A model generated the notes under the pieces. It was not told the origin of the DNA. It saw only the letters and a program-made list of their open reading frames with translations, and made no database searches. 64,000 bases of DNA from Saccharothrix obliqua (lineage in GTDB: Bacteria; Actinomycetota; Actinomycetes; Mycobacteriales; Pseudonocardiaceae), in NCBI RefSeq assembly GCF_019375475.1, contig NZ_JAHXGQ010000003.1:310001-374000 (forward strand), given 5' to 3'. Every line of letters begins with the position of its first letter. The first letter of the stretch is position 1. The translations under genes and the position numbers were made by a program. Shown here piece by piece: positions 12,879-41,133 of the stretch.

Positions 12879-12891
12879 CGCAGGAGAAACA

Positions 12892-15800
12892 GTGGCTCGC
12901 CGCAAGACCCCCACGACCAGGGTCGACCCGTCCGCCTTCGACCAGGCGGGCGCGCAGGTGTTCGACAACTCGCTGACCACCGAGATCGAGGACTCCTACC
13001 TGGAGTACGCGTACTCGGTGATCCACTCCCGCGCGCTGCCCGACGCGCGGGACGGCCTCAAGCCGGTGCACCGGCGCATCCTCTTCTCGATGAACGAGCA
13101 GGGGCACCGGCCGACCAGCCCGTACGTGAAGTCGTCGCGCGTGGTCGGCGACTGCTTCGTGCGCGGCGCCCTGGTGTCCACGCCCACCGGCCTGCGCCCG
13201 ATCGAGGAGGTCGGGGTCGGCGACGAGGTGCTGGACCCGGCCGGTCGTGCCGTGCCCGTGGTCGAGGCGTACCGGAACCCGGTCTCCGAGCTGGTCCGCG
13301 TGACGTGGGCCAACGGCGACACCATGCGCGTGACGCCCGGCCAGCGCTTCCGCACCGCCGCCGACGAGTGGACCGCGGCCCGCGACCTGGCGGGCCGCCA
13401 CACCCTCGGGTACGGCGCGGCCCGCCACGCCGCGCTGGTCGCCGACGGCGGGGACGTCGAGGCGTACGTGCTGGGCCTGGTCGCGGCGGCGGGCGTCGCC
13501 GAGGCGGGCCGGGTGCGCCTGGCCCTGACCGCGCCCGAACCGCTCGACGCGGCGCACGGCTGGGCGATCGCGCACGACCTCACCGCCGCCCGCGACAAGT
13601 ACGAGGGCGACGACGGCGTGGACCGCCACGTGCTCACCTTCGACCCGGACGAGGCGCTGACCGAGGCCGTGGTCCGCACACCGGCCGCCGTGCTCGCCGA
13701 GCGCACCCAGTGGGCCCCGTACCTGGCGGGCCTGTTCGACGCGGCGGGCCACGTGCACGCCGAGCGGGAGATCGGCTTCGCCGAGGACGGCGACCGCGTG
13801 TACGCGATGCTCGCCGACGCGGGCGTGCCCGCCGAGCGGGCGGCGGACGGCCTGCGCGTCGCGGGCCGCGCCGCGTCCGCCCTGGCGGCGGCGCTCCTGC
13901 GGTGGACGAAGACCGGCCACGACCGGCTGGTGGCGGTGATCCGCAACGCACGCGCCACCGCGGCGGCGGAGGACGTGGCGCACGGCGAGGTCGTCTCCGT
14001 GGAGCCGGTGGAGCCGGACACCACGTACGACATCCAGGTCGGCGCGGAGGAGCACGCGTTCGTCGTGGCGGGCCGGTTCGTGCACAACTGCATGGGCAAG
14101 TACCACCCGCACGGCGACACCGCGATCTACGACGCGATGGTCCGGCTGGCGCAGGACTTCTCCCTGAACACCCCGCTGGTCGACGGGCACGGCAACTTCG
14201 GCAGCCCGGACGACGGCCCGGCGGCCAGCCGGTACACCGAGGCGCGCATGTCGCCCGCCGCGATGCTGCTGGTCGGCGAGCTGGGTGAGGAGACCGTCGA
14301 CTTCCGGCCCAACTACGACGGCTCGCTCCAGGAGCCGGCCGTGCTCCCGGCCGCGTTCCCGAACCTGCTGGTCAACGGCACGTCCGGGATCGCGGTCGGC
14401 ATGGCGACCAACATGATCCCGCACAACCTGGGCGAAGTCGTGGCCGCCGCCCGGTGGCTGGTGACGCACCCGGACGCGACGCTGGACCGGCTGATGGAGT
14501 TCGTGCCGGGCCCGGACCTGCCGACCGGCGGGGTGCTGCTCGGCCTGGACGAGGTGCGCAAGGCGTACGAGACGGGCCGCGGCGTGGTGCGGATGCGGGC
14601 CAAGGTGGAGACCGGCCCGCTGGAGGGCAGCCGGGGCAGGCAGGCGATCACGGTCACCGAGCTGCCGTACGGCGTCGGCCCCGAGAAGATCATCGAGAAG
14701 ATCACCGACGAGGTGACGAAGTCCAAGCGGCTGTCGGGCATCGCCGACGTCAAGGACCTCACCGACCGCGAGAACGGCACGCGCGTCGTGATCGAGTGCA
14801 AGGTGGGCGTGAACCCGCAGGCGCTGCTGGCCGACCTGTACCGGTTGACGCCGATGGAGCAGTCGTTCGGCATCAACAACCTGGTGCTGGTCGACGGGCA
14901 GCCGCGGACGCTGGGGCTCAAGGCGTTGCTGGAGGTGTTCCTGGCGCACCGGTACGACGTGGTGACCCGCCGGACCCGCTACCGCCGCCGCAAGCGCGAG
15001 GACCGGCTGCACCTGGTCGAGGGCCTGCTGAAGGCGTTGCTCGACATCGACAAGGTGATCAGGCTCATCCGGGGCAGCGAGGACGCGCAGGCCGCCAAGG
15101 ACGGCCTGATGAAGCGGTTCAAGCTGTCGGAGGTCCAGGCGACCTACATCCTGGACACGCCGCTGCGCCGCCTCACCCGGTTCGACTCGATCGAGCTGGA
15201 GGCGGAGCAGGAGCGGCTGCGCGGTGAGATCGCGGAGCTGTCCAAGATCCTCGACGACGAGCGCGAGCTGAAGAAGGTCGTGTCCGCCGAACTGGCGAAG
15301 GTCGCGAAGGAGCTGGGGCAGGAGCGCCGCACGGCGTTGCTGGACGGCGACCTGAAGGAGGTGCTGGCGGCGTCCAAGCCGGCCGGGCCGCTGGAGGTCG
15401 CCGACGACCCGTGCCAGGTGGTGCTGTCGGCGACGGGCCTGGTGGCGCGGACGGCGGCCGAGTCGGAGGAGGCGTCGGAGGCACGTCGCCGCAACGGTCG
15501 GGCCAAGCACGACGCGGTGGCGGCCGTGGTGCACACGACGGCGCGTGGTCAGGTGCTGCTGGTGACCAACCGGGGTCGCGCGGTGAAGACCGACGTCCTG
15601 CCGCTGCCGGTGCTGCCGGAGCAGAGCGGGACGGTGTCGTTGAGCGGCGGCATGGCCGCGAGCGAGTTGCTGGACCTCGACCGGGGCGAGCGGGTGGTGG
15701 GCATCGCGCCGCTCAACGACACGGGGTCGCCCGGGTTGGCGCTGGGCACGCGGCAGGGCGTGGTGAAGGTGTGCTCGCCGGAGTGGCCGGTGCGGTCGGA

Positions 15801-16308
15801 CGAGTTCGAGGTGATCACCCTCAAGGAGGGTGACGAGCTGGTCGGCGCGGTGTGGTTGGGCAGTGCCGAGGAGACGTTGGTGTTCGTGTCGTCCGAGGCG
15901 TCGTTGCTGCGGTACAGCGCGTCGCTGGTGCGACCGCAGGGCCTCAAGGGCGGCGGCATGGCGGGCATCAACCTGCCGGCGGACGCGAAGGTCGTGTTCT
16001 TCGGTGCGGTGCGGACGGACGACGACGAGCACGGTGAGCCGATGGTCGTCACGTCGACCGGGCAGAGCGTGAAGGTGACGCCGTTCGCGGAGTACCCGGC
16101 GAAGGGGCGTGCGACCGGTGGCGTGCGGGCGCAGCGGTTCCTGAAGGGGGAGAACGCGTTGGTGCTCGCCTGGGTAGGCCCGCGTCCCGCGGGCGCGGCG
16201 GCCAACGGGTCGGCGGTGGAGCTGCCCGCGGTCGACCAGCGCCGCGACGGCTCCGGCCACGCCCACCCCGGGCCCGACGTGGTGGGCCACCTGGTCGAGC
16301 GGAGCTGA
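12892..16308 (+). CDS. parC: DNA topoisomerase IV subunit A with intein
   Basis: The 1138-residue precursor contains a 312-residue in-frame insertion; the joined exteins give 826 residues, the normal size of a ParC/GyrA subunit. The N-terminal breakage-reunion domain (SVIHSRALPDARDGLKPVHRR is the usual start) is interrupted after VVGD and resumes at CMGKYHPHGD. The catalytic Tyr lies in ASRYTEARMS (Tyr448 of the precursor, 136 after splicing). A C-terminal beta-pinwheel region begins near residue 840. AGGAG precedes the GTG start, 13 bp after parE, so the two are one operon. Activity depends on intein excision, because the insertion splits the active domain. Confidence 0.92.
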   Translation: MARRKTPTTRVDPSAFDQAGAQVFDNSLTTEIEDSYLEYAYSVIHSRALPDARDGLKPVHRRILFSMNEQGHRPTSPYVKSSRVVGDCFVRGALVSTPTGLRPIEEVGVGDEVLDPAGRAVPVVEAYRNPVSELVRVTWANGDTMRVTPGQRFRTAADEWTAARDLAGRHTLGYGAARHAALVADGGDVEAYVLGLVAAAGVAEAGRVRLALTAPEPLDAAHGWAIAHDLTAARDKYEGDDGVDRHVLTFDPDEALTEAVVRTPAAVLAERTQWAPYLAGLFDAAGHVHAEREIGFAEDGDRVYAMLADAGVPAERAADGLRVAGRAASALAAALLRWTKTGHDRLVAVIRNARATAAAEDVAHGEVVSVEPVEPDTTYDIQVGAEEHAFVVAGRFVHNCMGKYHPHGDTAIYDAMVRLAQDFSLNTPLVDGHGNFGSPDDGPAASRYTEARMSPAAMLLVGELGEETVDFRPNYDGSLQEPAVLPAAFPNLLVNGTSGIAVGMATNMIPHNLGEVVAAARWLVTHPDATLDRLMEFVPGPDLPTGGVLLGLDEVRKAYETGRGVVRMRAKVETGPLEGSRGRQAITVTELPYGVGPEKIIEKITDEVTKSKRLSGIADVKDLTDRENGTRVVIECKVGVNPQALLADLYRLTPMEQSFGINNLVLVDGQPRTLGLKALLEVFLAHRYDVVTRRTRYRRRKREDRLHLVEGLLKALLDIDKVIRLIRGSEDAQAAKDGLMKRFKLSEVQATYILDTPLRRLTRFDSIELEAEQERLRGEIAELSKILDDERELKKVVSAELAKVAKELGQERRTALLDGDLKEVLAASKPAGPLEVADDPCQVVLSATGLVARTAAESEEASEARRRNGRAKHDAVAAVVHTTARGQVLLVTNRGRAVKTDVLPLPVLPEQSGTVSLSGGMAASELLDLDRGERVVGIAPLNDTGSPGLALGTRQGVVKVCSPEWPVRSDEFEVITLKEGDELVGAVWLGSAEETLVFVSSEASLLRYSASLVRPQGLKGGGMAGINLPADAKVVFFGAVRTDDDEHGEPMVVTSTGQSVKVTPFAEYPAKGRATGGVRAQRFLKGENALVLAWVGPRPAGAAANGSAVELPAVDQRRDGSGHAHPGPDVVGHLVERS
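13153..14088 (+). other. Intein in ParC with decayed LAGLIDADG endonuclease
   Basis: Residues 88-399 of the parC product. The insertion begins with Cys (CFVRGALVSTPTGLRPIEEV, block A) and ends in FVHN before an extein Cys, the standard block G junction; block F is TYDIQVGAEEHAFV. It sits at the GyrA site used by known gyrA inteins, before MGKYHPHGD. Two LAGLIDADG-type motifs are present but degenerate (VLGLVAAAG and LAGLFDAAG), both without the catalytic Asp, so the nuclease is probably dead. Block B reads TPGQ where the usual TxxH has His, so splicing may be altered. The boundaries are clear; activity is inferred. Confidence 0.9.
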
Positions 16309-16368: not shown

Positions 16369-16769
16369 TGTCCGCGGCCTGGCCACTCGCCCGGCGGAAC
16401 GCCTTCCTCCGGTGCCGGGACTCGTGACAGCGCCGGCCCCGGCTCCCCATCTCGCCGCCGCGCTTCGCCCGCGCCGCTGTGCGCCTCCGCGCTGTGCTTC
16501 GCCGCGCCCTGACCGCGCCGCGCCCCGCCGCCTCCCCACCTCACCCACGCCGCCGTGGCCCGCCGCGCCGCCGCGTCCCCAGCCTCGCCGCCGTGCCGAC
16601 CCTCGACCTCACCGCTCGTCCGCCCGCGCCGCTCTCGCACCCCCGGCTCTCACCCGCCTCCCTCACCCACCGCTGTCACCTCACCGATCCCCGCCGGTCG
16701 GCACCACGCGGTCGCCCCTTCGGCGCGTGCGGGCGGGTGATGTTCCGGCCTTCTCCGCATTTTGGGGTT

Positions 16770-16788
16770 GATAACGACTCTCATATTC
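16770..16788 (+). promoter_or_regulatory. Fur-family-like operator
   Basis: GATAACGACTCTCATATTC stands out as an AT-rich island in this genome and matches 13 of 19 positions of the classical Fur box, keeping the 6-6-1-6 hexamer arrangement. It lies 45 bp upstream of the TIM-barrel gene that opens the importer/RiPP operon. It fits metal repression by a Fur-type regulator (Fur, Zur or similar); which metal cannot be told from sequence. DtxR/IdeR boxes look different. Confidence 0.45.
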
Positions 16789-16833
16789 AGTAAGTATGGC
16801 ACCCGCTTCTACCCGTTCGAGTGAAGGGCGCCC

Positions 16834-17586
16834 ATGATCACCGCAGGATTGGCTTCGGTCACCTTCCGGGGCAGACCGGTGGAACAGGTCGTCGGCCTCG
16901 CCGCCGACGCCGGGTTGGGGGTGGTGGAGTGGGCCGGTGACGGCCACGTCCCGCCCGGCGACCTGGCGAACGCGGCGCGGGTCGCGCGGTGGTGCCGGGA
17001 GGAAGGGCTCGCCGTGGGCACCTACGGGTCGTACTACAAGCCGGGTGACAGCGACCCGGCCGACTTCGCCGCCGTCCTGGACACCGCCGACGCCCTCGGC
17101 GCGCCCCGCGTCCGGGTGTGGGCGGGCGTGCGGGGCTCCGCGGAAACCCGACCCGCCGAGCGCGCCGCGGTGGTCGACGACCTGCGCCGCTGCGCGGACC
17201 TGGCCGCCGCACGCGGGGTGGCGGTCACCGCGGAGCACCACGTCGCCTCGCTGACCGACCGGCTCGACTCGGCCCTCCGCCTGCTGGCCGAGGTCGACCT
17301 GGTGGCGCACTGGCAGCCGCGCGAGCAGCCGGACGTGCGGGAGTGCCTGGCCGAGGTCACCGCGCTGCGCCCACGCGCGGTGCACGCGTTCTCCTGGGGC
17401 CCGGACGGCTTCACCGACCGCCTGCCGCTGCACGCCCGCGCCGACCTCTGGCGACCGCTGCTGGCGCTGCTCGCCGAGGACGGCCGGGACCGGGACGTGC
17501 TGCTGGAGTTCGTGCCCGACGACTCGCCCGAGGCGTTCCGCCGGGACGCCGCCACCCTGCTGTCCTGGCTGGAGGACCTCCGATGA
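16834..17586 (+). CDS. Sugar phosphate isomerase/epimerase-like TIM-barrel protein
   Basis: A 250-residue protein of the AP-endonuclease-2/xylose isomerase-like TIM-barrel type (GLASVTFRGRPVEQVVGLAA, then VVEWAGDGHVPPGD). Possible metal ligands are Glu in VTAEHHV, His in VAHWQP, His in AVHAFSW and Glu in LLEFVPDD; these proteins usually bind a divalent metal. It is the first gene of the importer/RiPP operon, behind the Fur-like box, and its stop overlaps the lipoprotein start (ATGA). Its substrate is unknown; it might act on the imported ligand or on the peptide product (inference). Confidence 0.75.
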   Translation: MITAGLASVTFRGRPVEQVVGLAADAGLGVVEWAGDGHVPPGDLANAARVARWCREEGLAVGTYGSYYKPGDSDPADFAAVLDTADALGAPRVRVWAGVRGSAETRPAERAAVVDDLRRCADLAAARGVAVTAEHHVASLTDRLDSALRLLAEVDLVAHWQPREQPDVRECLAEVTALRPRAVHAFSWGPDGFTDRLPLHARADLWRPLLALLAEDGRDRDVLLEFVPDDSPEAFRRDAATLLSWLEDLR

Positions 17587-18545
17587 CCAGGTTGCTGCTC
17601 GTCACCGCCCTCCTGCTCACCGCGTGCTCCACCGCGCCCGCCGAGGAACCGCCGCGGGCCACGCCGGTCGTGCGCACCGCCGCCCCGCTGGCGTCTTCGT
17701 TGAGCATCACCGACCCGCACGGCGTTCACATCACCCTGTCCAAGCCCGCCGAGCGGGTGGTGTGCCTCAACGGCCTGTGCGACGACGCGCTGGCCGACCT
17801 GGGTCTCACGCCGGTGGGCACCAGCAACCCGGTGCTGATCACGCACCCCGCGTTGCTCGGCGACGCGGGCCGGGCGGTGCCGGTGGTGCCCGGCACGTTC
17901 GGCGGCGAGGACGTGGAGGCGATCGCCGGGCTCCGCCCGGACCTGGTGATCGGCCTGCCCGGCGTGCACGACGCCCTGCGCCCGGCCATCGAGAAGTTCG
18001 CACCGCTGTGGACGGTCGAACCCGCGACGTGGGAGGAGTCCGTCGGCTACCTGCGTGCGCTGGGCGCGCTCACCGGGCGCACCGGGGAGGCGGTCGCGGC
18101 GGAGGAGCGGTTCCGCGGCAAGCTCGCCGACGCCGTCGAGCGCACCCACGGCAACGGGCAGGCGGCCCGCAAGGTGCTGCTGATGTACGGCAGCGCGGAG
18201 GCGATCGGCGTGGACACCACGGCCTCGCTCAAGGGCCACCTGCTCGGCCAGCTGTTCACGTACCCGTTCCCGGCCAAGGGCGGCGACGTCGACACCGCGA
18301 GCAACTACAGCGTGGAGGAACTGCTCGCCCAGCAGCCGGACGTGGTGTTCGTGTACTCCCTGCTGTTCGCCGCGGAGGACCGCGAGCTGAGCACGCAGCT
18401 CGCGGACAACCCGGTGTGGCAGCAGATCCCGGCCGTCCAGCAGCGGCGCGTGCACGAGACGCACGCCAAGCTGTGGGGGTCGGGCCGCGGGCTGCGCAGC
18501 CTGTCGGCGGTGGTGGACGAGGCGCTGGCGAAGGTGCCCGCTTGA
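17583..18545 (+). CDS. Iron-siderophore-type ABC transporter substrate-binding lipoprotein
   Basis: A 320-residue FecB/BtuF-type protein. The signal ends in a lipobox (LLLTAC), so Cys15 is probably the lipidated residue. The mature part has the two-lobed pattern VVCLNGLCDDALADLGLTPVG, then LRPDLVIGLPG and EELLAQQPDVVFVYS. The ATG overlaps the upstream stop (ATGA). With the following permeases and ATPase it forms a complete importer of the iron-complex/B12 family. Substrates of that family include siderophores, haem and cobalamin, and none can be singled out. The longer open frame starting at 17118 is a shadow of the upstream gene. Confidence 0.85.
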   Translation: MTRLLLVTALLLTACSTAPAEEPPRATPVVRTAAPLASSLSITDPHGVHITLSKPAERVVCLNGLCDDALADLGLTPVGTSNPVLITHPALLGDAGRAVPVVPGTFGGEDVEAIAGLRPDLVIGLPGVHDALRPAIEKFAPLWTVEPATWEESVGYLRALGALTGRTGEAVAAEERFRGKLADAVERTHGNGQAARKVLLMYGSAEAIGVDTTASLKGHLLGQLFTYPFPAKGGDVDTASNYSVEELLAQQPDVVFVYSLLFAAEDRELSTQLADNPVWQQIPAVQQRRVHETHAKLWGSGRGLRSLSAVVDEALAKVPA

Positions 18546-19450
18546 GGCTGCTCGTGGCCGTCGGGGTGGTCGCGGTGCTCGGGTCGCTGGCGCTCGGCCG
18601 CCCGCTGGTGTTGTTCGAGTGGGGCGAGCTGGAGCAGGTGGTGGTGTGGCAGTTGCGCCTGCCGCGCCTGCTGCTCGGCGTGGTGGCCGGCGCGTGCCTG
18701 GGCACGGCGGGGCTGCTGCTCCAGGAGTCGCTGCGCAACCCGCTCGCCGTGCCGGAGCTGCTGGGCGTGTCCAGCGGCGCGGCGGCGGCGGTCGGCACGT
18801 GCGTCGCGTTCGGCGTCGCGGTCCCGTTCGCGCCGCTGACCCCGGCGCTGGCCGGTGCGGCGGTGGGTGGTGGGCTGACGTTGCTCGCGGTGCGCGGCGC
18901 GACCGGCCCGGCGGCGGTGCTCCTGATCGGCGCGGCGGTCGGGTCGGCGTGCCAGGCGGTGCTGCTGGCCGCCACGGCGGTCGCCGATTCGCGTGAGCAG
19001 GGCGTCCTGGTGCGTTACCTGCTGGGCTCGCTGACCGGGACGACGTGGCGGACGCTGGCGCCGGTGGCCGCCGGTCTGGTGCTGGTGGTGCCGGCGGTGG
19101 TGCTCGTGCTGCCGCGGGTGCGGGTGCTGCGGCTGGGCGACGACGAGGCGTTGTCGGCGGGGCTGCGCCCCGGCCGGGCCCGCCTGGCGGTGCTCGGGGT
19201 GGCGTCGCTGCTGGTGGCCGCGGTGGTGGGGCCGGCGGGTCCGGTGGCGTGGGTCGGGTTCTTCGCGCCCCGGCTCGCGGCCTGGCTCGGGCGGCCCTCG
19301 GTCCCGGTCACGGCGTTGGCGGGCGCGGTCGTGGTGGTGGTCGCGGACCTCGTGGCGCGGACCGCGCTGTACCCGGTGGAGCTGCCGGTCGGCGGGTTGA
19401 CGGCGTTGGCGGCGGTGGCGGTCGGGTTGCTGGTGCGGAGGCGCGCGTGA
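18542..19450 (+). CDS. FecCD-family ABC transporter permease
   Basis: A 302-residue polytopic membrane protein with FecCD signatures: RLPRLLLGVVAGACLGTAGLLLQ near the first membrane segments, NPLAVPELLGVSSGAAAAV, and GPVAWVGFFAPRLA near the C-terminus. I chose the TTG overlapping the lipoprotein stop (TTGA), consistent with translational coupling through this operon; a GTG at 18554 is possible. It should pair with the next permease as a heterodimeric channel. Confidence 0.85.
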   Translation: MRLLVAVGVVAVLGSLALGRPLVLFEWGELEQVVVWQLRLPRLLLGVVAGACLGTAGLLLQESLRNPLAVPELLGVSSGAAAAVGTCVAFGVAVPFAPLTPALAGAAVGGGLTLLAVRGATGPAAVLLIGAAVGSACQAVLLAATAVADSREQGVLVRYLLGSLTGTTWRTLAPVAAGLVLVVPAVVLVLPRVRVLRLGDDEALSAGLRPGRARLAVLGVASLLVAAVVGPAGPVAWVGFFAPRLAAWLGRPSVPVTALAGAVVVVVADLVARTALYPVELPVGGLTALAAVAVGLLVRRRA

Positions 19451-20379
19451 GGTGGCGGCTCGCGGGATTGGCCGCGGTGGTCGTGGTGTGCGCGCTGGCG
19501 CAGCTCAGCGTCGGTGCGACGGGGGCGTCCCCCGGCGCGTTGTTCGGCGCCGACGAGCACGCGCGGATGGTCGTGCTGGAACTGCGTGCGCCGCGGGTGC
19601 TGGTGGGTTTGTGCGCGGGTGCGTGCCTCGGCATCGCGGGTGTGGTGCTCCAGGCGGCGATCCGCAACCAGCTCGCGTCGCCGGAGATCACCGGTGTCGG
19701 CTCGGGCGCGGTGCTGGGCGCGGTGGCCGCGTCGGTCGCCGGTGTGGCGCAGCCGCTGCCGATGGCGGTCGCGGCGCTCGTCGGCGGTGTGCTGGGCGGC
19801 GGTGTCCTGTGGGTGCTGGTCGGTGGTTCCGGCGACGTGGCCGTGCGCGGTGTCGTGGTGTCGGCGGTGCTGGTCGGCACGACGCTGGTGCTGCTGACCG
19901 CCCGTCCGCAGCTCGCCGGGGCGGTGTCGCGGTGGCTGCTCGGCTCGCTGGCCGGGCGGACGTGGGAACACCTCGCGCCGCTGTGGCCGGTCGCGGTGGT
20001 GGTGCTGGTGGCGGCCGTGTTGCTGGGCGGTGTGCTGGACGTGCTGGCGGTGGACGACGACCACGCGCACGGCGTCGGGCTGGCCGTGGTGCCGTGGCGC
20101 AGCGGGGTTCTCCTGCTGGCGGCCGTGGCGACCTCGGCGGCGGTGGCCGCGGTGGGCGCCACGGCGTTCGTCGGGTTGCTCGCGCCGCACCTGGCCCGGC
20201 GGTTCGTCGGTGTGGCGCACCGGGCCGCCGTGCCGGCCTCGGCGCTCACCGGTGCCGGTGCGGTGGCGGCGGCGGACGCGGTCGGGCAGGTGGTGCGCGT
20301 GCCCGCGGGCGCGATCACCGCGTTGTTCGGCGCGGTGGTGCTGGTCGTGGTGGCGCGGAGGACGGGAGGGATCGGTTGA
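19447..20379 (+). CDS. FecCD-family ABC transporter permease (second)
   Basis: A 310-residue polytopic protein of the same family (RAPRVLVGLCAGACLGIAGVV, NQLASPEITGVGSGAVLG, GLLAPHLARRFVG). Its GTG start overlaps the upstream permease stop (GTGA), and its own stop overlaps the ATPase start. The two permeases are clearly related but diverged, as in FecC/FecD pairs. Confidence 0.87.
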   Translation: MRWRLAGLAAVVVVCALAQLSVGATGASPGALFGADEHARMVVLELRAPRVLVGLCAGACLGIAGVVLQAAIRNQLASPEITGVGSGAVLGAVAASVAGVAQPLPMAVAALVGGVLGGGVLWVLVGGSGDVAVRGVVVSAVLVGTTLVLLTARPQLAGAVSRWLLGSLAGRTWEHLAPLWPVAVVVLVAAVLLGGVLDVLAVDDDHAHGVGLAVVPWRSGVLLLAAVATSAAVAAVGATAFVGLLAPHLARRFVGVAHRAAVPASALTGAGAVAAADAVGQVVRVPAGAITALFGAVVLVVVARRTGGIG

Positions 20380-21155
20380 CACCGCTGCGCGCCGAGCGCG
20401 TTCACGTGCGGTTCGGCGAACACGAGGTGCTCAAGGGCGTGGACCTGGCGGTGCGGGAGGGGGAGTGGCTGAGCCTGCTGGGGCGCAACGGCAGCGGGAA
20501 GACGACGTTGCTGCGGGTGCTGGCCGGGTTGCTGACGCCGTCGTCGGGTCGGGTGCTGCTCGACGGCGGGCCGTTGGACCGGGTGCCGCGTCGCGCGGTC
20601 GCGCGCCGGATCGCGTTGCTGCCGCAGTCGACCCCGTACGTGCGGGGGCTGACCGTGCGGCAGTTCGTGCGCCAAGGCCGTTACGCCGCAAGGGGTCCAC
20701 TGGGGATGCTCGGCGAGGTGGACGACCCGCGGGTGCGGGAGGCGTTGCGGGACACCGGGGTCGAGCAGTGGGCGGACACCCCGCTGGAGCGGCTGTCCGG
20801 CGGGCAGCGGCAGCGGGTGCGGCTGGCGTTGGCCCTCGCGCAGGACGCGCCCGTGCTGCTGCTCGACGAACCGACCACGTACCTGGACATCCGGCACCAG
20901 TACGAGGTGCTGAACCTGGTCCGGGACCTGCAACGGGAGCGCGGCCTCACGGTCGTGTCGGTGCTGCACGACCTCGCCCAGGCCGCGCGGTACTCGGATC
21001 GCGTGGTGGCGTTGCTGGACGGCGTGGTGCACGTGGACGGCGCACCGTCCGAAGTGGTCGACGCGGTGCTGCTGCGCGAGGTCTACGACGTGGCGGGTTC
21101 GGTGCTGTGGATCACTACGAACGGGGTATTGAAAATGGTTGTCGTTCCAGATTAG
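20376..21155 (+). CDS. ABC transporter ATP-binding protein, iron-complex type
   Basis: A 259-residue ABC ATPase with Walker A (GRNGSGKTTL), signature LSGGQRQRVRLALALAQ, Walker B VLLLDEPTTYLDI and the H-loop His in VLHDLAQAAR. The TTYLD sequence after Walker B is typical of FecE/FhuC/BtuD-type importers. The start is a TTG overlapping the permease stop. Fifty bp later the 35-residue peptide gene begins, so the importer and RiPP genes are probably cotranscribed. Confidence 0.9.
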   Translation: MTPLRAERVHVRFGEHEVLKGVDLAVREGEWLSLLGRNGSGKTTLLRVLAGLLTPSSGRVLLDGGPLDRVPRRAVARRIALLPQSTPYVRGLTVRQFVRQGRYAARGPLGMLGEVDDPRVREALRDTGVEQWADTPLERLSGGQRQRVRLALALAQDAPVLLLDEPTTYLDIRHQYEVLNLVRDLQRERGLTVVSVLHDLAQAARYSDRVVALLDGVVHVDGAPSEVVDAVLLREVYDVAGSVLWITTNGVLKMVVVPD

Positions 21156-21205
21156 GTTGGTGGCGGTCGACCGACCGGAACCACCCGAAACGAGAGGAGA
21201 CAGCC

Positions 21206-21313
21206 ATGGACCAGGTCTTCGTGCAGGTCGAGGACGAGCGACTGCTGCCGCACAACTCCGCCACCCACAGCAACGCGCTGGTGGAGAACCCGTTCGACGG
21301 CGACGACGAGTGA
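21206..21313 (+). CDS. Candidate RiPP precursor peptide (35 aa, Cys-free)
   Basis: A short open frame with a strong GAGAGGAGA ribosome-binding site five bases before its ATG, placed between the importer ATPase and the ThiF/RRE-like, hydrolase, YcaO and nitroreductase genes. An acidic N-terminal half (MDQVFVQVEDERLLP) would serve as leader, and HNSATHSNALVENPF plus an acidic DGDDE tail as core and follower. There is no Cys, so azol(in)es could only form at Ser or Thr (HNS, ATHS). Two His close to Ser/Thr suggest possible metal-binding groups. It is too short for routine gene finders and has no recognised family. Confidence 0.7.
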   Translation: MDQVFVQVEDERLLPHNSATHSNALVENPFDGDDE

Positions 21314-21367
21314 CCGACCCCGGGGCCGCTCCGGCGGCCCCGGGCCCGGCAACCACCGGAGGCGAGT

Positions 21368-22147
21368 GTGGGAACCCTGAAACCCGGCACGGCGTTGTTC
21401 GCCGGTCCGTCCGGGACCGTGCTGCGGGACGCGGCGGGCGAGCTGTTCGCGATCGCCCTGCCCGACGAGGCGGTCGACGCCGTCCGCGCCGCGCTCGCCG
21501 GTGCGGACGCGCCCACCGCGCCGGAGCTGGCCGCGTTCGACCACGCCGGTCACCTCGGCCGCCGGCAGACGTGGCCGGTGGAGCGGCGCACCGTGGTGGT
21601 GCTGGCCGACGACGGCGTGGACTTCGCCGACGCGTTGCGGCGGGCGGGCGCGCACCCCGTGGTGCTGCCCGCGACGGCGGACCTGGCCGCCGTGCTGGCG
21701 GAGCACCCGGCCGCCGTCTGCGCCTGGCACGACGGGCCGGCGCCGGAGCGGTGGCTGGAGTTCGACGCGCTGGCCGGGCACGGTGTCGGTTGGCAGCGGG
21801 TGAGCCGCGAGGGCAGGCACGTGCTGCTGGAACCGGTCGGCGTGCCGCACCGGGACGTGCGAGCCCGCCGGCTCGCCGCCGCGGGCTCCGGGCACCGGCA
21901 CCTGCTGGCCTACTGGTCGGGCGAGCGCGTCGTGGTCGGTGACGAGGCGCCGGACCCGGCCGAGCTGCTGCTGGTCGCCGCCCTCGCCGCCAAGGACCTC
22001 GCGCGCTGGGCCACCGGCGTGCCGGTGGTGGCGAACTCCCTGACGCCGCGAGCGATCCCGGCACACCGCCGGCTGCGCGTCGTCGACCTGGACACCGGGG
22101 CGATCGCCGACCACCCCGTGCTCCCGGTGCCGATCAGTGCGCCGTGA
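21368..22147 (+). CDS. ThiF/RRE-like leader-binding partner of YcaO
   Basis: A 259-residue protein that I read as an ocin-ThiF-like partner of the YcaO enzyme. The N-terminal part (PGTALFAGPSGTVLRDAAG, followed by an acidic helix) resembles winged-helix leader-binding (RRE) domains, and the C-terminal part (HRHLLAYWSGERVVVGDEAP) resembles the degenerate E1-like half of such proteins. The Cys pairs that bind zinc in many relatives are absent. The GTG start follows GGAGG. The next gene begins 11 bp before this stop. Its role would be to hold the 35-residue peptide for the YcaO enzyme (inference). Confidence 0.55.
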   Translation: MGTLKPGTALFAGPSGTVLRDAAGELFAIALPDEAVDAVRAALAGADAPTAPELAAFDHAGHLGRRQTWPVERRTVVVLADDGVDFADALRRAGAHPVVLPATADLAAVLAEHPAAVCAWHDGPAPERWLEFDALAGHGVGWQRVSREGRHVLLEPVGVPHRDVRARRLAAAGSGHRHLLAYWSGERVVVGDEAPDPAELLLVAALAAKDLARWATGVPVVANSLTPRAIPAHRRLRVVDLDTGAIADHPVLPVPISAP

Positions 22148-23525
22148 CTTCACCGTGGCGGGGCTCGCGCACACCCTCGTCACGGCCGATCGCGACGCGC
22201 CCGTGGTGCTCATCCGCACCCCGTACGGGCGGCACCACCACATCGCCGAGGCGCACGCGTGGGCGAAGCGCGGATTCCCGTGCGCCGTGGGCGATGTGCG
22301 CGGCAAACACGGCTCGACCGGCGTGTTCCGGCCCTACCGGGACGAGGGCGACGACGGAGCAATGGTGGTGGACGCGTTGCAACGCATGGGTTTCCGCCAC
22401 GTCATCGCGATGGGCGCGTCCTACGCGGCGTACTGCGCCGTCACCGCCGCCATCGCCCGGCCGGACGTCGTGATCGGCGTGCTGGCCGCCGTGCCCGCGC
22501 TCGGGCTCGGGGAAACCGCCCGCGAACCCGGTGGCGCGGCGCGGTTGGCGTGCCGGGTCGGGTGGTGGGGCGAGCACGCGGCCACCGCCGGGTCGACCGA
22601 CCTCGCCGCCACCCCGGTGCACGAACTGGTGGCCGGGTGGGACGACCTGTGGGCCGCGCCCGAGCGCACCGCGGCGTTGTGGCGGGCGCTGCCACGCCTC
22701 ACCATGCCGCTGCTCGCGGTCGGCGGGCTGCACGACCCGTTCGCCGCCGACACCGAACGCCTCGCCGGCTCCTGGGGCGGCCCGACGAGGCTCGTGCTCG
22801 GTCCCTGGGGGCACGACCTCGACGCCCCCGCGCCCGGCGCGGCACTGGCGGGGCGCCGCGTCGGCGCGCTCTACCTGGCGTGGGCGCGAGCGGTTCACGC
22901 ACTCCGCGGCCACAAGTCCTTCTACGCCATCGGTTCGCACGCGGCCGGAGCCGCGCCGTGCGGCTGGCGTCGGCACACCGCGCGGTCCCGCCCGGTGGAG
23001 CTGCACGTGGTCACCCGCGCGTTCACGGCCGACCCCGTGCGGCCGTTCCGCTCCACGCCGCTCGGCACACCGATCGGCGACCCGGTGCCGGCCGACGCGA
23101 GCGCGCTCCTGCTCACCCCGCCGCTGCCCGCCGGGGAACTGCGCGGCGGCACGACCGTCACGCTCGACGTGGTCGCCGACGCGCCCGACGCGGACTGGGT
23201 GGTCCGCCTGTCCCACCAGGGCGTCCAGCTCGCGCACGCGGTGGCCCGCGCCCGTCACCGACCCGGTGTCCCGCGTCGCGTCGCGGTGGAGCTGCCGCCG
23301 ATCGGCCACGCCCTGCCCGACGGGGCGCGGCTGCGCCTCGACGTCGCCGGTCACCACTGGCCGCGCCACGCCCGCAACCCGCACACCGGCGAGGACCCCG
23401 TGCGTGCGCGGCACCTGCGCCCGAGCCATCGCGACGTGCGTCGCGCCAAAGCCCGGATTCCCTGGCACGCGCCGGGATCCGACCGAGTACCCGCCGCCGA
23501 CCTGCCCGAGGAGATCGCATCGTGA
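22137..23525 (+). CDS. CocE/NonD-type alpha/beta hydrolase (S15 peptidase family)
   Basis: A 462-residue protein of the X-Pro dipeptidyl-peptidase/CocE family. The pattern DVRGKHGSTGVFRPYRDEGDDGA precedes the nucleophile in MGASYAAYC (Ser95); the acid is probably Asp in GGLHDPFAAD and the His is in LGPWGHD. A beta-sandwich C-terminal domain follows, as usual. It overlaps the genes on both sides (11 bp upstream, GTGA downstream), so it belongs to the RiPP operon. S15 enzymes often cleave after Pro and the candidate precursor has two Pro, so peptide processing is a reasonable guess. An esterase role on the product is equally possible. Confidence 0.8.
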   Translation: MRRDFTVAGLAHTLVTADRDAPVVLIRTPYGRHHHIAEAHAWAKRGFPCAVGDVRGKHGSTGVFRPYRDEGDDGAMVVDALQRMGFRHVIAMGASYAAYCAVTAAIARPDVVIGVLAAVPALGLGETAREPGGAARLACRVGWWGEHAATAGSTDLAATPVHELVAGWDDLWAAPERTAALWRALPRLTMPLLAVGGLHDPFAADTERLAGSWGGPTRLVLGPWGHDLDAPAPGAALAGRRVGALYLAWARAVHALRGHKSFYAIGSHAAGAAPCGWRRHTARSRPVELHVVTRAFTADPVRPFRSTPLGTPIGDPVPADASALLLTPPLPAGELRGGTTVTLDVVADAPDADWVVRLSHQGVQLAHAVARARHRPGVPRRVAVELPPIGHALPDGARLRLDVAGHHWPRHARNPHTGEDPVRARHLRPSHRDVRRAKARIPWHAPGSDRVPAADLPEEIAS

Positions 23526-24811
23526 CCGCGCCGCCGCTGGTCGACCCGCTGACCGGAATCGTGCGCCGACTCGTCGACGTCGCACCCGTGCCCGGTGTCC
23601 CGCGCCGCTACCGCGCGGTCACCGCCGAGGTGGCCGACGCGCGCCGGCTGGGCGGGTGGCCCGCCGACCGGGTCAGCCTCGGCACCGCGTTCGGCGACGT
23701 GGACGCCGCCCGCGCCGCCGCGGTCGGCGAGGCCGTGGAGCGGTACTGCGGCAACCGCGTCCCGCCGGGTCTGCGCACGGCCACCGCCGCCGAGCTGGCC
23801 GCGGCCGGGGAACGTCACTTCGGCCCGACCGACCTGCCGTTCTTCACACCACGCCAGTACGGCGCGGAGGGTTTTCCCTACCGGCCCTTCACCGACGACC
23901 TGCCGATCACCTGGGTGGCGGGCCGGGAATCCGGGGAGACGTGCCTCCTCCCCGCTTCGTGGGTGTACCTGAACTACCACTCCGGCGCGCGGCGCGCGCA
24001 ACCCCGCCTGCACCACCTGAACTACGCGGGCATCGCGACGGGCGTGAGCGCCGAGGACGCGTTCACCCGCGCCCTGCTCGAACTCGTGGAGCGCGACGCC
24101 CTGGAGCGGTGGTGGCACCTCGGTGCGCCCACCACCGGCATCTCCGTGGCGGACGTGCCCGGCCTGGCCGCCGAACTCGCCGGGTGCCCGCTGGAGGTGC
24201 ACCTCGTGGAACTGCCCACCGAGCACCCGGTGTCGTGCGTCGGCGCGGTCGTGGTGGACCACGCCAACGGCATCGTCGCGGGTGGGGGAGCGGCCCGCTT
24301 CGACCCGGTGGAGGCGTGCGGGAAAGCCGTGCTGGAAGCCATCCACACGTGGGTTTTCACGCAGGGGCTGCTGGACGCGGACGGCTGGGTGTTCCAGGCC
24401 GTCGAGGCCGGTCTCCTCGCCCGCGGCCTCTACCTGCCGCACCGCGCCGACCGCCGGTACCGGGACGACGTGGGCGTGGACTACGCCGCCGTGCGCGATC
24501 TCGGCGCGCAGGTGCAGGTCTGGCTCGACCCGCGGGTGCAGGGCGAACTGCTGCACCGCTTCACCCGCCCGGAGCGGGTGGTGGAACCGCAACCGGGCGG
24601 AGACCTCGCCGCGTTGCTGGAGAGCCTGGCGGGCAACCGGATCGCGACCGTCGACCTGACCACGGAGGACGTCGCCGAGGCCGGGCTGCACGTGGTCCGG
24701 GTGTGCGCGACCGGGCTGGTGCCGAACGCGCCCGCCGCGTTCCGCTACCTCGGCCTGCCGCGGTGGGGCGACCCGGGTTCCGCGCTGCTCGACCCGCCGC
24801 CGTTCCTGTGA
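23522..24811 (+). CDS. YcaO-domain cyclodehydratase
   Basis: A 429-residue YcaO protein, ATP-dependent enzymes that activate peptide amides to form azolines, amidines or thioamides. The ATP/Mg-binding Glu motifs are GEAVERYCGNR (residues 69-79) and LLELVERDALERW (186-198). The C-terminus reads DPPPFL, Pro-rich but not the classical PxPxP of azoline-forming YcaO proteins. No TfuA partner is present, which argues against thioamidation. The neighbouring ThiF-like and SagB-like genes suggest azole formation. The GTG start overlaps the hydrolase stop. Confidence 0.9.
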   Translation: MTAPPLVDPLTGIVRRLVDVAPVPGVPRRYRAVTAEVADARRLGGWPADRVSLGTAFGDVDAARAAAVGEAVERYCGNRVPPGLRTATAAELAAAGERHFGPTDLPFFTPRQYGAEGFPYRPFTDDLPITWVAGRESGETCLLPASWVYLNYHSGARRAQPRLHHLNYAGIATGVSAEDAFTRALLELVERDALERWWHLGAPTTGISVADVPGLAAELAGCPLEVHLVELPTEHPVSCVGAVVVDHANGIVAGGGAARFDPVEACGKAVLEAIHTWVFTQGLLDADGWVFQAVEAGLLARGLYLPHRADRRYRDDVGVDYAAVRDLGAQVQVWLDPRVQGELLHRFTRPERVVEPQPGGDLAALLESLAGNRIATVDLTTEDVAEAGLHVVRVCATGLVPNAPAAFRYLGLPRWGDPGSALLDPPPFL

Positions 24812-25389
24812 TCCCGCTGCCCGAGCCGCACCGGCCGGCGATGGGCCTGGTGGAGGCGTTGCTGATCCGCCGTTCGCGTTACGCGTACGGTCCGTTGGAC
24901 CGGGCGGACCTCGGTTCGCTGCTCCGTTACGCCGTGGGCGTTCAGCGGAACGCGCCACCGCACGTGCTCGGCACCAACCCGACCGCGGGCGGCCTGCCGT
25001 CGCTGCGGGTGCACGTCGTGCTGGACCGGCGCGTCTACGAGTACCTGCGTGAGCCGCACGCCCTGTCCGACACCGGGGAAGCCGACCTCGACGGCGTTTT
25101 CGCGCAGGAGGAGTTCGCCCGCCGCGCGCCCGCGGTCATCGTCCTAACCGGACGGATGGGGCCGGGGCTCGCGAAGTACGGGCCGCGGCACCACCGGACC
25201 GTCCACCTCGACGCGGGTGTGGCGGTGCAGAACCTGTACCTGGTCGGCACCGCGCTCGGCCTGAACTGCTGCGCCGTGGCCGGTTTCCGCGACGACGCGG
25301 TGAAAGCCCTTGTCAGGGGTGGAGAACAGGACGTGCCACTCGCCCTGTTCGTGGTCGGCGGGTCCGCGGCACCGGGCATTCGGACCTGA
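24808..25389 (+). CDS. SagB-like nitroreductase-fold dehydrogenase
   Basis: A 193-residue protein of the nitroreductase fold, the FMN enzymes that oxidise azolines to azoles in RiPP pathways. Visible are EALLIRRSRYAYGPL (the R-R-S phosphate-binding region), TNPTAGGLPSLRVHVV and LDAGVAVQNLYLVGTALGLNCCAVAGF (the core helix). It overlaps the YcaO stop (GTGA) and is the last gene of the coupled operon. It is shorter than typical SagB proteins because it lacks the N-terminal extension. Confidence 0.85.
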   Translation: MIPLPEPHRPAMGLVEALLIRRSRYAYGPLDRADLGSLLRYAVGVQRNAPPHVLGTNPTAGGLPSLRVHVVLDRRVYEYLREPHALSDTGEADLDGVFAQEEFARRAPAVIVLTGRMGPGLAKYGPRHHRTVHLDAGVAVQNLYLVGTALGLNCCAVAGFRDDAVKALVRGGEQDVPLALFVVGGSAAPGIRT

Positions 25390-25466: not shown

Positions 25467-26387
25467 ATGGACACCGCGAGGACGGACACGTTCGCCGGTG
25501 CGCTGCGGGCCGCCATCGCGGAGCGCGGGCTCGGGTTGGAACGCATCCGCGAGCACCTCGCGCAGCACGGGGTGCGGGTCAGCCTGGCGACGTTGAGCTA
25601 CTGGCAGTCCGGGCGCAGCCGCCCGGAACGCCGCTCGTCGCTGGCCGCGATCGGCCACCTGGAGGAGATCCTCGCGCTGCCGGACGGCTACCTGGCGAGC
25701 CTGCTCGGCCCGCCGCGCCCGCGTGGCCGGTGGCTCAAGCGCGTGCCCGAGCAGCCGCCGCCCGCGGGTCCCGAGTGGTCCGAACCGGACCAGGCCGCCT
25801 GGGCGCTGCGGCAGGCCGACACCGGCCGCGACCACCCGCTGACCAGGCTCAGCCAGCACGACCTCGTCACCATCGGGCCGGACCGGGGTGAGCGGACCGT
25901 GCGGTCGCGGCACGTGCTGCGGGCCGAGGCGGACGGCGCGGACCGCTGGGTGGTGGTCGTGCGGGTGGACGAGCCGGGCCGCGCGCTGCCGCTGCTGCGC
26001 CCGCTGCGGCACTGCGCGGTGGGTCGCCTGGTCAGCCGGCCGGGCACCGGGTTGGTGGTGGCGGAGTTGTTGTTCGACCGCGCGTTGCGTCGCGGCGACA
26101 GCATCGTGGTCGAGCACGAACTGGTGCACCGACCGCCCTACCCGCCCGCGACGGACTGCGGCCGGACGTTCCGGGTGCCGGTCCGGGAATACGTGCTGGA
26201 GGTCGCGTTCGACCCGTTGGCGCGCCCCGTGGAGTGCGAGCTTTACCGGACGCCCGCCGGCGGTCACCCGGACGTGCGGCCGGCGGAAGTCGACACCGGC
26301 GGCGCGCTGCTGGGTGTGGCGCTCGATTTCGGGCCGGGCGATTACGGATTCCGCTGGAAATGGCCTAACGCGCACCGGCTGGGTTAG
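25467..26387 (+). CDS. XRE-type helix-turn-helix regulator
   Basis: A 306-residue protein. About residues 10-60 form a lambda-repressor-like helix-turn-helix (LGLERIREHLAQHGVRVSLA, then TLSYWQSGRSRPERR). The larger C-terminal part is not recognised and might sense a ligand. GAGGGGGA precedes the ATG. It lies 77 bp after the nitroreductase gene on the same strand, and its 3' end overlaps the convergent MFS gene by 23 bp, so it may regulate the importer/RiPP operon or the exporter (inference from position). Confidence 0.75.
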   Translation: MDTARTDTFAGALRAAIAERGLGLERIREHLAQHGVRVSLATLSYWQSGRSRPERRSSLAAIGHLEEILALPDGYLASLLGPPRPRGRWLKRVPEQPPPAGPEWSEPDQAAWALRQADTGRDHPLTRLSQHDLVTIGPDRGERTVRSRHVLRAEADGADRWVVVVRVDEPGRALPLLRPLRHCAVGRLVSRPGTGLVVAELLFDRALRRGDSIVVEHELVHRPPYPPATDCGRTFRVPVREYVLEVAFDPLARPVECELYRTPAGGHPDVRPAEVDTGGALLGVALDFGPGDYGFRWKWPNAHRLG

Positions 26388-27597
26388 CGGCGCGGCGCAA
26401 CGTCGGCGTCGCCCAGGCGAGCGCGACACCGACGAGGAGCACGGCGACCCCGGCGGCCAGCCCGGCACGCGGGCCACCGGCGAGTGCGGCGGCGCCCGCC
26501 AGCGCCGCGCCCGCGGGTTGGCCCAGTCCCCACGACACCATGCGGGCCGTGGTGTTGACGCGCGACTGGAGCCCCGGCGGGCAGACCTGCTGGCGGTAGG
26601 TGATCGAGTTCAGGACGACGGTCGAGTGCGCCGCGCCCCAGGCGACCGCGACCGCGCACGCCGCCACCCAGTGCGTGGTGACCAGCGTGGAAGCACCGCA
26701 CAGCAAGGAGATCGGCAACGCGCCCAGCGCCACCCGCGCGCCACCCCACCGCTCGGTCAGCCGGGGCAGCACCTTCGCCGCGACCAGCGCGCCCACGCCC
26801 CAGCAGCTGAACAGCACGGCCAGCCGCGCGTCACCGGACGGTGCGACACCCAGCACCCGGTCCGCCCACGGGACCAGCATCGCCACCCACGCGCCGGCCG
26901 CCGCCGAGTGCGTCGCGCCGACCAGCGTCAGGGTGCGCACTATTCCGTGGCCCCACAGGAAGCGGAGTCCCGAGCCGATGTCGCCGAGGAGTGTCGTGGC
27001 GTCCTCGCGCGGCGTGGACAGCGCGCCGCGGATGGCGTTGATCAGCATCGCCGAGCCCGTGGCGGTGAGGACGTTGACCGCGAGCAGCCCGGCGGGGGCG
27101 ACCGACGCCACCACCAGGCCGGCCAACCCCGGCACGACGAGTTCCGCGGCCGTCGTCCGGCCGAACAGCCGCGCGTAGGCCGCGGTGATGTTCTCCTTGC
27201 CCACCAACGAGGGCAGGGCCCCGAAGTTGGCCGCGTCGAAGAACACGAACGCGGTCTGCGCGAGGAACGCGACGGCCACCACGTGCGGCGCCGTGAGGGC
27301 GTCCAGCCACCAGGCGACCGGCACGCTCACCATGCCCGCCGCAACCACCAGATCGGCCCCCACCATGAGCCGCCGCCGATCCACCCGATCCGCCACCGCG
27401 CCCGCCAGGAGGCCGAACACGAGGTAGGGCAAGGCTTCCGCCATCGCGACGGCCGATGTCCAGCCGGCGGACCCGGTGAGGCGGTAGACCAGCACGGGCA
27501 GCGCCACGACGGCGACGAGGCTGCCCGTGACGGACAGCAGGCGTGCGGTGAGGTAGCGGCTGAAGTCGCGCGCGGGCACGTCCAGGGCAGCGGTCAC
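26365..27597 (-). CDS. MFS exporter, EntS-like (MFS_3)
   Basis: A 410-residue polytopic transporter with twelve likely membrane segments and the MFS loop motif GAVADRVDRRRLMVGADL between segments 2 and 3. Its features resemble the EntS-type MFS_3 group, which includes exporters of enterobactin and drugs. The start is a GTG. A near-perfect 17-bp palindrome 12 bp upstream (27610-27626) is probably its operator. Its position beside the importer/RiPP operon makes it a candidate exporter of that product, but it could equally be an unrelated drug pump. Confidence 0.82.
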   Translation of the reverse strand: MTAALDVPARDFSRYLTARLLSVTGSLVAVVALPVLVYRLTGSAGWTSAVAMAEALPYLVFGLLAGAVADRVDRRRLMVGADLVVAAGMVSVPVAWWLDALTAPHVVAVAFLAQTAFVFFDAANFGALPSLVGKENITAAYARLFGRTTAAELVVPGLAGLVVASVAPAGLLAVNVLTATGSAMLINAIRGALSTPREDATTLLGDIGSGLRFLWGHGIVRTLTLVGATHSAAAGAWVAMLVPWADRVLGVAPSGDARLAVLFSCWGVGALVAAKVLPRLTERWGGARVALGALPISLLCGASTLVTTHWVAACAVAVAWGAAHSTVVLNSITYRQQVCPPGLQSRVNTTARMVSWGLGQPAGAALAGAAALAGGPRAGLAAGVAVLLVGVALAWATPTLRRAANPAGAR

Positions 27598-27609
27598 CGG
27601 TACATGCTA

Positions 27610-27626
27610 ATGAATACCGTGTTCAT
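27610..27626 (-). promoter_or_regulatory. Palindromic operator upstream of the MFS gene
   Basis: ATGAATAC and GTGTTCAT flank a single C, giving an 8-1-8 palindrome with one mismatch; outer TACATG (27601) and CATGTA (27624) extend the dyad. This shape is typical of TetR- or MarR-family sites. No TetR gene is adjacent. Confidence 0.55.
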
Positions 27627-40554: not shown

Positions 40555-40719
40555 TCAGATGGGGCGCTGCGGCGGGTGGGGCTGGCAGCAGCAGCACGAG
40601 CCGTTGCAGGAGCAGGACTGCGACGCGCCCGTTTCGGGCAGCGCGACGGCGTCCCGCATGGTGGTGACGCTCAGGTCGTCGAGGACGAGGTCGTTCTCGT
40701 CGAACGCGAGGTCGATCAT
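40555..40719 (-). CDS. Thiopeptide precursor peptide 4
   Basis: A 54-residue peptide with leader MIDLAFDENDLVLDDLS and VTTMRDAVALPETGA, core SQSCSCNGSCCCC and tail QPHPPQRPI. GGAGG lies six bases before the ATG. It shares the DEND leader variant with precursor 5, so these two are the closest pair. An Asn replaces the third Cys of precursor 1. Confidence 0.92.
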   Translation of the reverse strand: MIDLAFDENDLVLDDLSVTTMRDAVALPETGASQSCSCNGSCCCCQPHPPQRPI

Positions 40720-40734
40720 CTGAACCTCCAGCGG

Positions 40735-40917
40735 TCAGGTGGTCGGCAGCTGCGGGGACGGGTGCCCGGGCAGCTGCGGCTGCTGGCAGCAGCAGCACGA
40801 GCCGCACGAGCAGGACTGCGACGCGCCGGTTTCCGGCAGCGCGACGGCGTCCCGCATGGTGGTGACGCTCAGGTCGTCGAGGACGAGGTCGTCGTCGTCG
40901 AACGCGAGGTCGATCAT
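40735..40917 (-). CDS. Thiopeptide precursor peptide 3
   Basis: A 60-residue peptide with leader MIDLAFDDDDLVLDDLS and VTTMRDAVALPETGA, core SQSCSCGSCCCC and the longest tail (QQPQLPGHPSPQLPTT). The core is one residue shorter between the SCSC and SCCCC blocks than in precursors 1, 2 and 4, which would change the ring size. The DDDD leader variant pairs it with precursor 2. Confidence 0.93.
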   Translation of the reverse strand: MIDLAFDDDDLVLDDLSVTTMRDAVALPETGASQSCSCGSCCCCQQPQLPGHPSPQLPTT

Positions 40918-41110: not shown

Positions 41111-41133
41111 GTGAGCCCCAAACGTCGGTGCGG

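Follow-up and report, generated by a model that had tools for sequence, protein, structure and literature searches.

A streptamidine-family locus of Saccharothrix obliqua with conserved Zur-type boxes and a proposed role in zinc acquisition

The window analysed here, a 64,000-nt stretch of Saccharothrix obliqua DNA (contig NZ_JAHXGQ010000003.1, positions 310,001 to 374,000), harbours an intact operon of ten tightly packed genes on the forward strand (positions 16834-25389), in which a Fec-type importer, a 35-residue precursor peptide and a set of peptide-modifying enzymes are encoded together (Table 1). A preliminary description of this DNA had located the operon correctly, but counted nine genes joined nearly throughout by 4-bp overlaps; such overlaps occur at six of the nine junctions, with a seventh being an 11-bp overlap and the other two being gaps of 50 and 54 bp that flank the peptide gene on its 5′ and 3′ sides, respectively. 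The precursor (MDQVFVQVEDERLLPHNSATHSNALVENPFDGDDE) scores above the cut-off of the NCBIfam model NF040714, 'streptamidine family RiPP' (RiPP, ribosomally synthesised and post-translationally modified peptide). Furthermore, judged by protein families and gene order, the set amiF1-F4, A, B, C, D and E is present in the arrangement published for the ami cluster of Streptomyces albidoflavus J1074 (BGC0002115), which comprises amiF1-F4 (FecBCDE-like) and amiA-E, plus amiT1/T2 (Russell et al. 2021, PMC8442711). The locus thus belongs to a RiPP family already known, that of streptamidine, and, with both the model match and the published gene order in place, the earlier statement that no described pathway has this composition does not hold.

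Table 1. Features of the ami locus and its surroundings, in window coordinates
Feature	Position	Strand	Basis
Zur-type palindrome TGATAACGACTCTCA before first gene (upstream box)	16769-16783	.	20.0 bits, ribosomal-locus matrix
Xylose-isomerase-like TIM-barrel protein	16834-17586	+	PF01261, 48.3 bits
amiF1-like substrate-binding lipoprotein (Peripla_BP_2)	17583-18545	+	PF01497
amiF2-like FecCD permease	18542-19450	+	PF01032
amiF3-like FecCD permease	19447-20379	+	PF01032
amiF4-like ABC ATPase	20376-21155	+	PF00005; top NCBIfam match FecE, below FecE cut-off
Zur-type palindrome TGAAAATGGTTGTCG before peptide gene (internal box)	21130-21144	.	21.9 bits; promoter geometry
amiA precursor peptide, 35 aa	21206-21313	+	NF040714, 66 bits (cut-off 40)
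Predicted core HNSATH	21251-21268	+	aligns with experimentally established core HLSATH
amiB-like RRE/E1-like protein	21368-22147	+	TIGR03882 E 0.041, below cut-off for own copy
amiC-like S15/CocE-type hydrolase	22137-23525	+	PF02129, PF08530
amiD-like YcaO	23522-24811	+	PF02624, 158.8 bits
amiE-like SagB-type nitroreductase	24808-25389	+	PF00881; TIGR03605 72.4 bits, under cut-off 78.4
MFS transporter (MFS_3), candidate exporter	26365-27597	-	PF05977
Weaker Zur-like site before MFS gene, uncertain	27611-27625	.	16.6 bits

Streptamidine derives from the core HLSATH and bears a six-membered amidine and no azole (PMC8442711); the core predicted here is HNSATH, so that the pattern H-x-S-A-T-H is common to both systems, as are gene set and order. 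The peptide of S. albidoflavus NRRL B-1271 (locus L212, core HLSATH) additionally carries the follower SNALVENPF, exactly as in the window. Differences from the J1074 cluster are the TIM-barrel gene at the front, the absence of any match to the amiX-like protein found in Streptomyces loci, and an adjoining major facilitator superfamily (MFS) gene where J1074 has the ATP-binding cassette (ABC) pair amiT1/T2. The amidine chemistry proposed below for the window locus is borrowed from the literature on the S. albidoflavus relative, and would apply here by analogy. Bottromycin and klebsazolicin are antibiotics made from other precursors. Their YcaO-linked amidine rings are a feature in common with streptamidine (PMC8442711). 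Because YcaO, SagB-like and RRE-like (RiPP recognition element) proteins form the classical azole toolkit, the pathway had at first been taken as azole-forming, and one may ask whether the locus makes an ordinary azole antibiotic (a thiazole/oxazole-modified microcin) beside which the importer lies by accident. This is highly improbable: the peptide has no cysteine and its core is not rich in serine or threonine, the YcaO protein reaches only 212 bits against the SagD model of NCBIfam (cut-off 219.25) with the SagB-type protein likewise falling short, the importer recurs across ami loci, and the published relative contains no azole and displayed no antibiotic activity (PMC8442711).

The amiB product had been called ThiF/RRE-like, a label that is weak for the window's own copy but that fits the family, in which 23 of 31 aligned relatives match TIGR03882 at E ≤ 0.05 (best 2.7e-6); a comparison of the AmiB family profile with solved structures returned nothing better than E 0.9. 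Family matches place the importer in the chelate-binding Fec class rather than the ZnuA class, and the solved structures closest to its binding protein are FecB and siderophore-type binding proteins. The TIM-barrel protein, homologues of which occur in 19 of the 102 amiA-containing loci described below, has acidic and histidine residues that are conserved across 18 aligned copies. Methanobactin and other RiPPs made by multinuclear non-haem iron oxidases (MNIOs) have a metal (copper) role. These are metal-linked RiPPs, and the peptide of the window has a TIM-barrel-fold neighbour; the latter, however, belongs to PF01261, the chemistry is of the YcaO type and the predicted metal is zinc rather than copper. 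A Pfam search found no DUF692/MNIO match at E ≤ 0.1 among the ten operon proteins, and assignment to the MNIO/methanobactin type was rejected.

Among 394 genomes of the class, 19 encode an NF040714 peptide (18 above the cut-off), as do 10 of 119 relatives, both counts including the window's genome. To these was added a profile search of genome contigs with an alignment of 22 YcaO proteins, from which the best 80 of 212 loci were used; their genera include Saccharothrix, Actinosynnema, Saccharopolyspora, Pseudonocardia, Nocardiopsis, Streptomyces, Rhodococcus, Nocardioides, Williamsia and others. The resulting set of 109 loci (the window, L027-L045, L055-L063 and L143-L222) became 108 orientable loci after exclusion of L044, which has no amiD or amiA match. 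An amiA gene was found in 102 of the 108, with the YcaO gene of the other six (L164, L165, L183, L197, L206 and L221) lying within 2.5 kb of a contig start. As some strains are represented twice (L063, L143), 61 non-redundant upstream clusters were used where indicated. One pair, L204 (filed as Kitasatospora arboriphila) and L193 (Williamsia muralis), is nearly identical in layout, peptide and box, for which a mislabelled assembly, contamination or recent transfer are the alternatives.

The peptide and the importer are both retained across this set. All 85 distinct peptides fit L-[APS]-[HT]-x-S-A-[STG]-H-S-N-A-L-V-x-x-P-F, although in part by construction, since the search was motif-based. Conservation is clearly stronger in the stretch beyond the core than in the leader, with S7-N8-A9-L10-V11 and P14-F15 present in every one of the 85. 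A FecCD permease match occurs in 97 of the 102 amiA loci, 93 of these within 8 kb of amiA, and a binding-protein homologue in 84; in 56 loci the ATPase gene is immediately upstream of amiA on the same strand. The expectations of the preliminary description that the peptide would be conserved, that importer and peptide-modifying genes form a unit, and that the pairing of importer and YcaO would extend beyond this window are hence borne out.

With regard to regulation, the palindrome that had been noted before the first gene as a Fur-like box does exist, but is of the Zur type, and a second box of this kind precedes the peptide gene. The latter overlaps the end of the ATPase gene and is itself overlapped by a TTGAAA-18-TAGGTT promoter that conforms to a strict TTGNNN/TANNNT rule. 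The motif published for S. coelicolor Zur from chromatin immunoprecipitation is tGaNNatSatNNtCa (PMC5472717), to which the upstream box has 2 mismatches in 11 positions; the same source lists rpmG2 as a Zur target. As the window's genome has a single L33, ribosomal boxes were sought at the L33 paralogs of other ami genomes, and 18 of 22 loci with a cysteine-free L33 paralog contain a site of at least 12/15, with none at this level in the other four (L126, L132, L142 and L121). From the 18 sites, presumed to mark the operons' own promoters, a symmetrised matrix was built; its sites were picked with a consensus typed after viewing the window's box, and the published motif serves as the independent check. 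The upstream and internal boxes are the two highest-scoring matrix sites within the window, and none of 5000 dinucleotide shuffles of each box's own 250-bp surroundings reached either score. A site at 25301 (15.7 bits) was taken as chance, lying as it does inside amiE. Across the whole genome, the self-typed consensus finds 32 sites with at most three mismatches (3 sites for a control pattern), four of which, with two mismatches, are closer than the ami boxes, which have three each. One of these four (G000:C23:803770-803784, L066) precedes a lipoprotein resembling a metal-chelate binding protein.

The box is a family-wide feature. A matrix site of at least 14.9 bits lies within 250 bp upstream of amiA in all 102 loci, whilst the lower threshold of 12 bits is reached by 80 of 6439 mostly coding windows from elsewhere in these loci and by 156 of 10,200 dinucleotide shuffles, which control for composition. 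The importer or TIM-barrel gene is preceded by a box of 12 bits or more within 250 bp in 68 of 84 loci and within 450 bp in 79 of 84, as opposed to 78 of 3247 background windows. The independent published motif gives the same picture: amongst the 61 non-redundant amiA windows, 27 contain a perfect match and 56 a match with at most two mismatches, compared with 4 and 160 of 6439 background windows, respectively. The box and a TTGNNN-(16 to 19)-TANNNT promoter overlap one another in 33 of the 61, where shuffling of the flanks around a fixed box (200 trials) gave a mean of 0.66 and a maximum of 4, and such overlap is the geometry of a repressor. S. albidoflavus NRRL B-1271, standing in for J1074, which is itself outside the locus set, has both boxes (24.4 and 22.4 bits), and so the published streptamidine system is also predicted to be Zur-controlled.

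Could the palindromes instead be Fur boxes of an iron siderophore or otherwise iron-regulated system? The resemblance of the binding protein to FecB and siderophore-binding proteins would agree with this, as would certain importer boxes that read TGATAATGATTATCA. Nevertheless, we give this explanation very little credence, as the boxes fit both the published Zur motif and those of the ribosomal loci, and streptamidine was negative in the chrome azurol S (CAS) assay (PMC8442711). Control by the iron regulator IdeR/DmdR was also rejected, as there is no enrichment of its boxes upstream of amiA in the 102 loci: the best sites match 8-11 of 19 positions, compared with 7-12 of 19 in background windows. 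The 19-bp sequence used for that comparison is what we take to be the IdeR consensus.

A Zur ortholog is encoded elsewhere in the window's genome (G000:C5:167855-168205), with M. tuberculosis FurB (2o03, 1.7e-51) as its best match and the S. coelicolor protein 3mwm (8.4e-51) a close second. It is not the only member of its family, however, as between one and five FUR-family genes are present in each of 27 ami genomes and four in that of the window, one of which is a separate Nur-like paralog matching 3eyy. That the boxes are read by another FUR-family regulator, such as a paralog or Nur (for nickel), is for this reason conceivable but most improbable, because these genomes carry the same box at 18 of 22 zinc-independent ribosomal-protein loci, and because the boxes match the published Zur motif and differ from what we take to be the S. 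coelicolor Nur box. In one genome a FUR-family gene lies some 9 kb from amiA (G348:C1:275839-276174).

Zur-type ribosomal genes also occur beside ami genes themselves. In L027, a locus nearly identical to Streptomyces ones, the ami genes adjoin those for S18, a CobW-type GTPase, type-B L31, L33, S14 and L32. A tblastn search with these proteins other than L33 gave at least one match in 22 of 108 loci; 4 of the 22 were dropped as having CobW alone, at 27-32% identity, leaving 18 with a match to S18, L31, S14 or L32. The position of the ribosomal genes varies: the S. griseus group has them just upstream of ami, L210 and L219 have them downstream, and in L166 their orientation is different. Of the 18 loci, the 15 that are named all come from Streptomyces, making this neighbourhood a clade-limited clue.

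The pattern extends to the divergent motif-B precursors (NF040715), which occur in 7 of 394 genomes, all of one family, and which have a different core and two YcaO genes. All seven loci harbour FecCD/ATPase matches together with the YcaO pair. Each of the seven also has a box scoring 13.6 bits or more within the 250 bp that precede the precursor region, compared with 12 of 508 windows drawn from these loci, whilst in three (L242, L246 and L247) the locus's best box is elsewhere. Across the family, the sequence of the core seems to be held less constant than the zinc box and the importer. In L247, a CobW-like match and another three strong Zur-type sites fall in the region 12408-14123, which is possibly part of a larger zinc island.

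Considering the boxes, their conservation and their overlap with promoters, the ami genes are very probably under Zur control, and a Zur-type box points to zinc, rather than iron, as the predicted metal. Combined with a Fec-type importer, such a switch suggests that the peptide may help these bacteria to collect zinc. When zinc is plentiful, zinc-loaded Zur would sit on the palindromes at both promoters and block them; when it is low, the importer and peptide-modifying genes would be expressed. The YcaO protein and its two partners, the RRE/E1-like and the SagB-like protein, would then, together with the S15-type hydrolase, convert HNSATH to an N-terminal amidine peptide, which would be exported, here probably via the MFS protein, and would bind scarce zinc through imidazole and amidine nitrogens, the complex finally being recovered by the FecBCDE-type importer. 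Within this cycle, repression by Zur, MFS export, zinc binding and re-import are steps that we infer, and it is likewise our proposal that the product carries the metal. We put the probability of the full cycle, that of a Zur-repressed, exported and re-imported RiPP zincophore, at roughly 0.55. The earlier idea of a metal link is in this way retained in part, in that the prediction links synthesis of the peptide to metal status; the idea itself is not new, having been put forward by Russell et al. from the importer genes (PMC8442711), and the published tests of it were negative.

Several observations weigh against this proposal, the strongest being the absence of zinc binding in those published tests, in which streptamidine was not seen to bind zinc or any of six other metals (Fe, Co, Cu, Mg, Mn and Ni). 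It also did not react in the CAS assay, an amiD mutant had no phenotype under metal starvation, and the main text reports no zinc-starvation step for its production (PMC8442711). All evidence for Zur, moreover, comes from sequence. The strict promoter rule fails in 28 of the 61 non-redundant windows, and also at the upstream box of the present locus, and no box was found in 5 of the 84 importer upstream regions, one of them truncated by a contig end. The importer is represented by an ATPase match alone in 3 of 102 amiA loci and by no match in two (L146, and L149, whose amiA nears a contig end), and some importer matches are just 34-45% identical and on the opposite strand. Furthermore, an amiE of the window's own type is present in 20 of 102 loci, the candidate MFS exporter is limited to 39 of 108, and the two histidines of the motif-A core are absent from motif-B cores.

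A system that is under Zur control but does not make a zincophore would accommodate some of these points. The peptide could signal zinc starvation, serve in competition when zinc is short or buffer zinc inside the cell, with the importer taking up the peptide itself or another chelate. This fits the conserved boxes alongside the published absence of zinc binding and growth phenotype, as well as the motif-B cores without a histidine pair, and Russell et al., who describe the role of streptamidine as unknown, suggest signalling or development (PMC8442711). Conversely, FecCD matches within 8 kb in 93 of 102 loci are better suited to the recovery of a chelate, and no antibacterial or antifungal activity was seen (PMC8442711); overall we regard such an alternative as the less likely of the two. 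For the zincophore cycle, the negative data could be reconciled in two ways. The dehydrogenase is essential, yet the isolated streptamidine is not oxidised (PMC8442711), and conservation of the residues that follow the core is strict, so that streptamidine could be a trimmed form, which could account for its failure to bind zinc. The unaltered behaviour of the amiD mutant could, for its part, be masked by ZnuABC.

In this lineage, export probably falls to the MFS protein instead of the ABC pair of the published cluster. Amongst the five genes scanned downstream to 30777, which include the MFS gene, there is no ABC protein. Homologues are divergent from amiA across the same box in 19 of the 39 loci that have them. 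The site before the window's MFS gene is poorly kept, its counterparts in six relatives scoring 12.0-15.8 bits with a different sequence. An open reading frame (ORF) at 25467-26387 is conserved in five close relatives and has no Pfam or NCBIfam family match. A conserved protein of about 420 residues, encoded in L027 (14034-15299, forward strand) and 66 further ami loci, mostly divergently from the importer genes or amiA, belongs to no curated family, although profile searches gave weak beta-propeller hints; it is probably the amiX product of PMC8442711. Elsewhere in the window, a separate thiopeptide-type cluster on the reverse strand contains an RRE-YcaO fusion (33459-35618; TIGR03604, 243 bits; TIGR03882, 50.8 bits) and a precursor-like ORF at 40735-40917, with similar ones at 40555-40719 and 40943-41191; one of these ORFs is above the cut-off of the thiazolylpeptide model NF033400. 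Upstream of the ami operon, and preceded by a GyrB gene, a GyrA-like ORF of 1168 residues (12802-16308, forward strand) has a Hint_2 match near its front (26.5 bits, just under the cut-off), which indicates a possible intein.

Zur-controlled metallophores have precedents in actinomycetes. Coelibactin of S. coelicolor is the product of a zincophore cluster under Zur boxes, much as is predicted for ami, and [S,S]-EDDS of Amycolatopsis japonicum was discovered via its Zur boxes; coelibactin, however, is non-ribosomal and [S,S]-EDDS is not a peptide, whereas the ami product is a RiPP for which zinc binding is proposed. The accessible part of the discovery paper (PMC8442711) makes no mention of Zur, and a literature search, which lay outside most subscription papers, supplements and regulon databases, yielded, among the matches listed, no report linking streptamidine or a YcaO RiPP to Zur or to zincophores. 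What appears to be new is thus the family-wide zinc switch, with the streptamidine family and the idea of metal import already known. A bolder and more tentative proposal, to which we would give somewhat less than even odds, is that the motif-A and motif-B families together form the first class of ribosomally made zincophores, with a Zur-controlled peptide, an exporter and a FecBCD importer across actinobacteria, and that published streptamidine is what is left of the true product after clipping or loss of metal. Streptamidine is a widespread actinobacterial RiPP of unsolved function, and the presence of a Zur-type box at all 102 loci names both a condition, zinc starvation, and a metal. Should the ami product prove to be a zinc carrier, it would count as a zincophore made on the ribosome, a kind of compound for which the literature searched shows no report.

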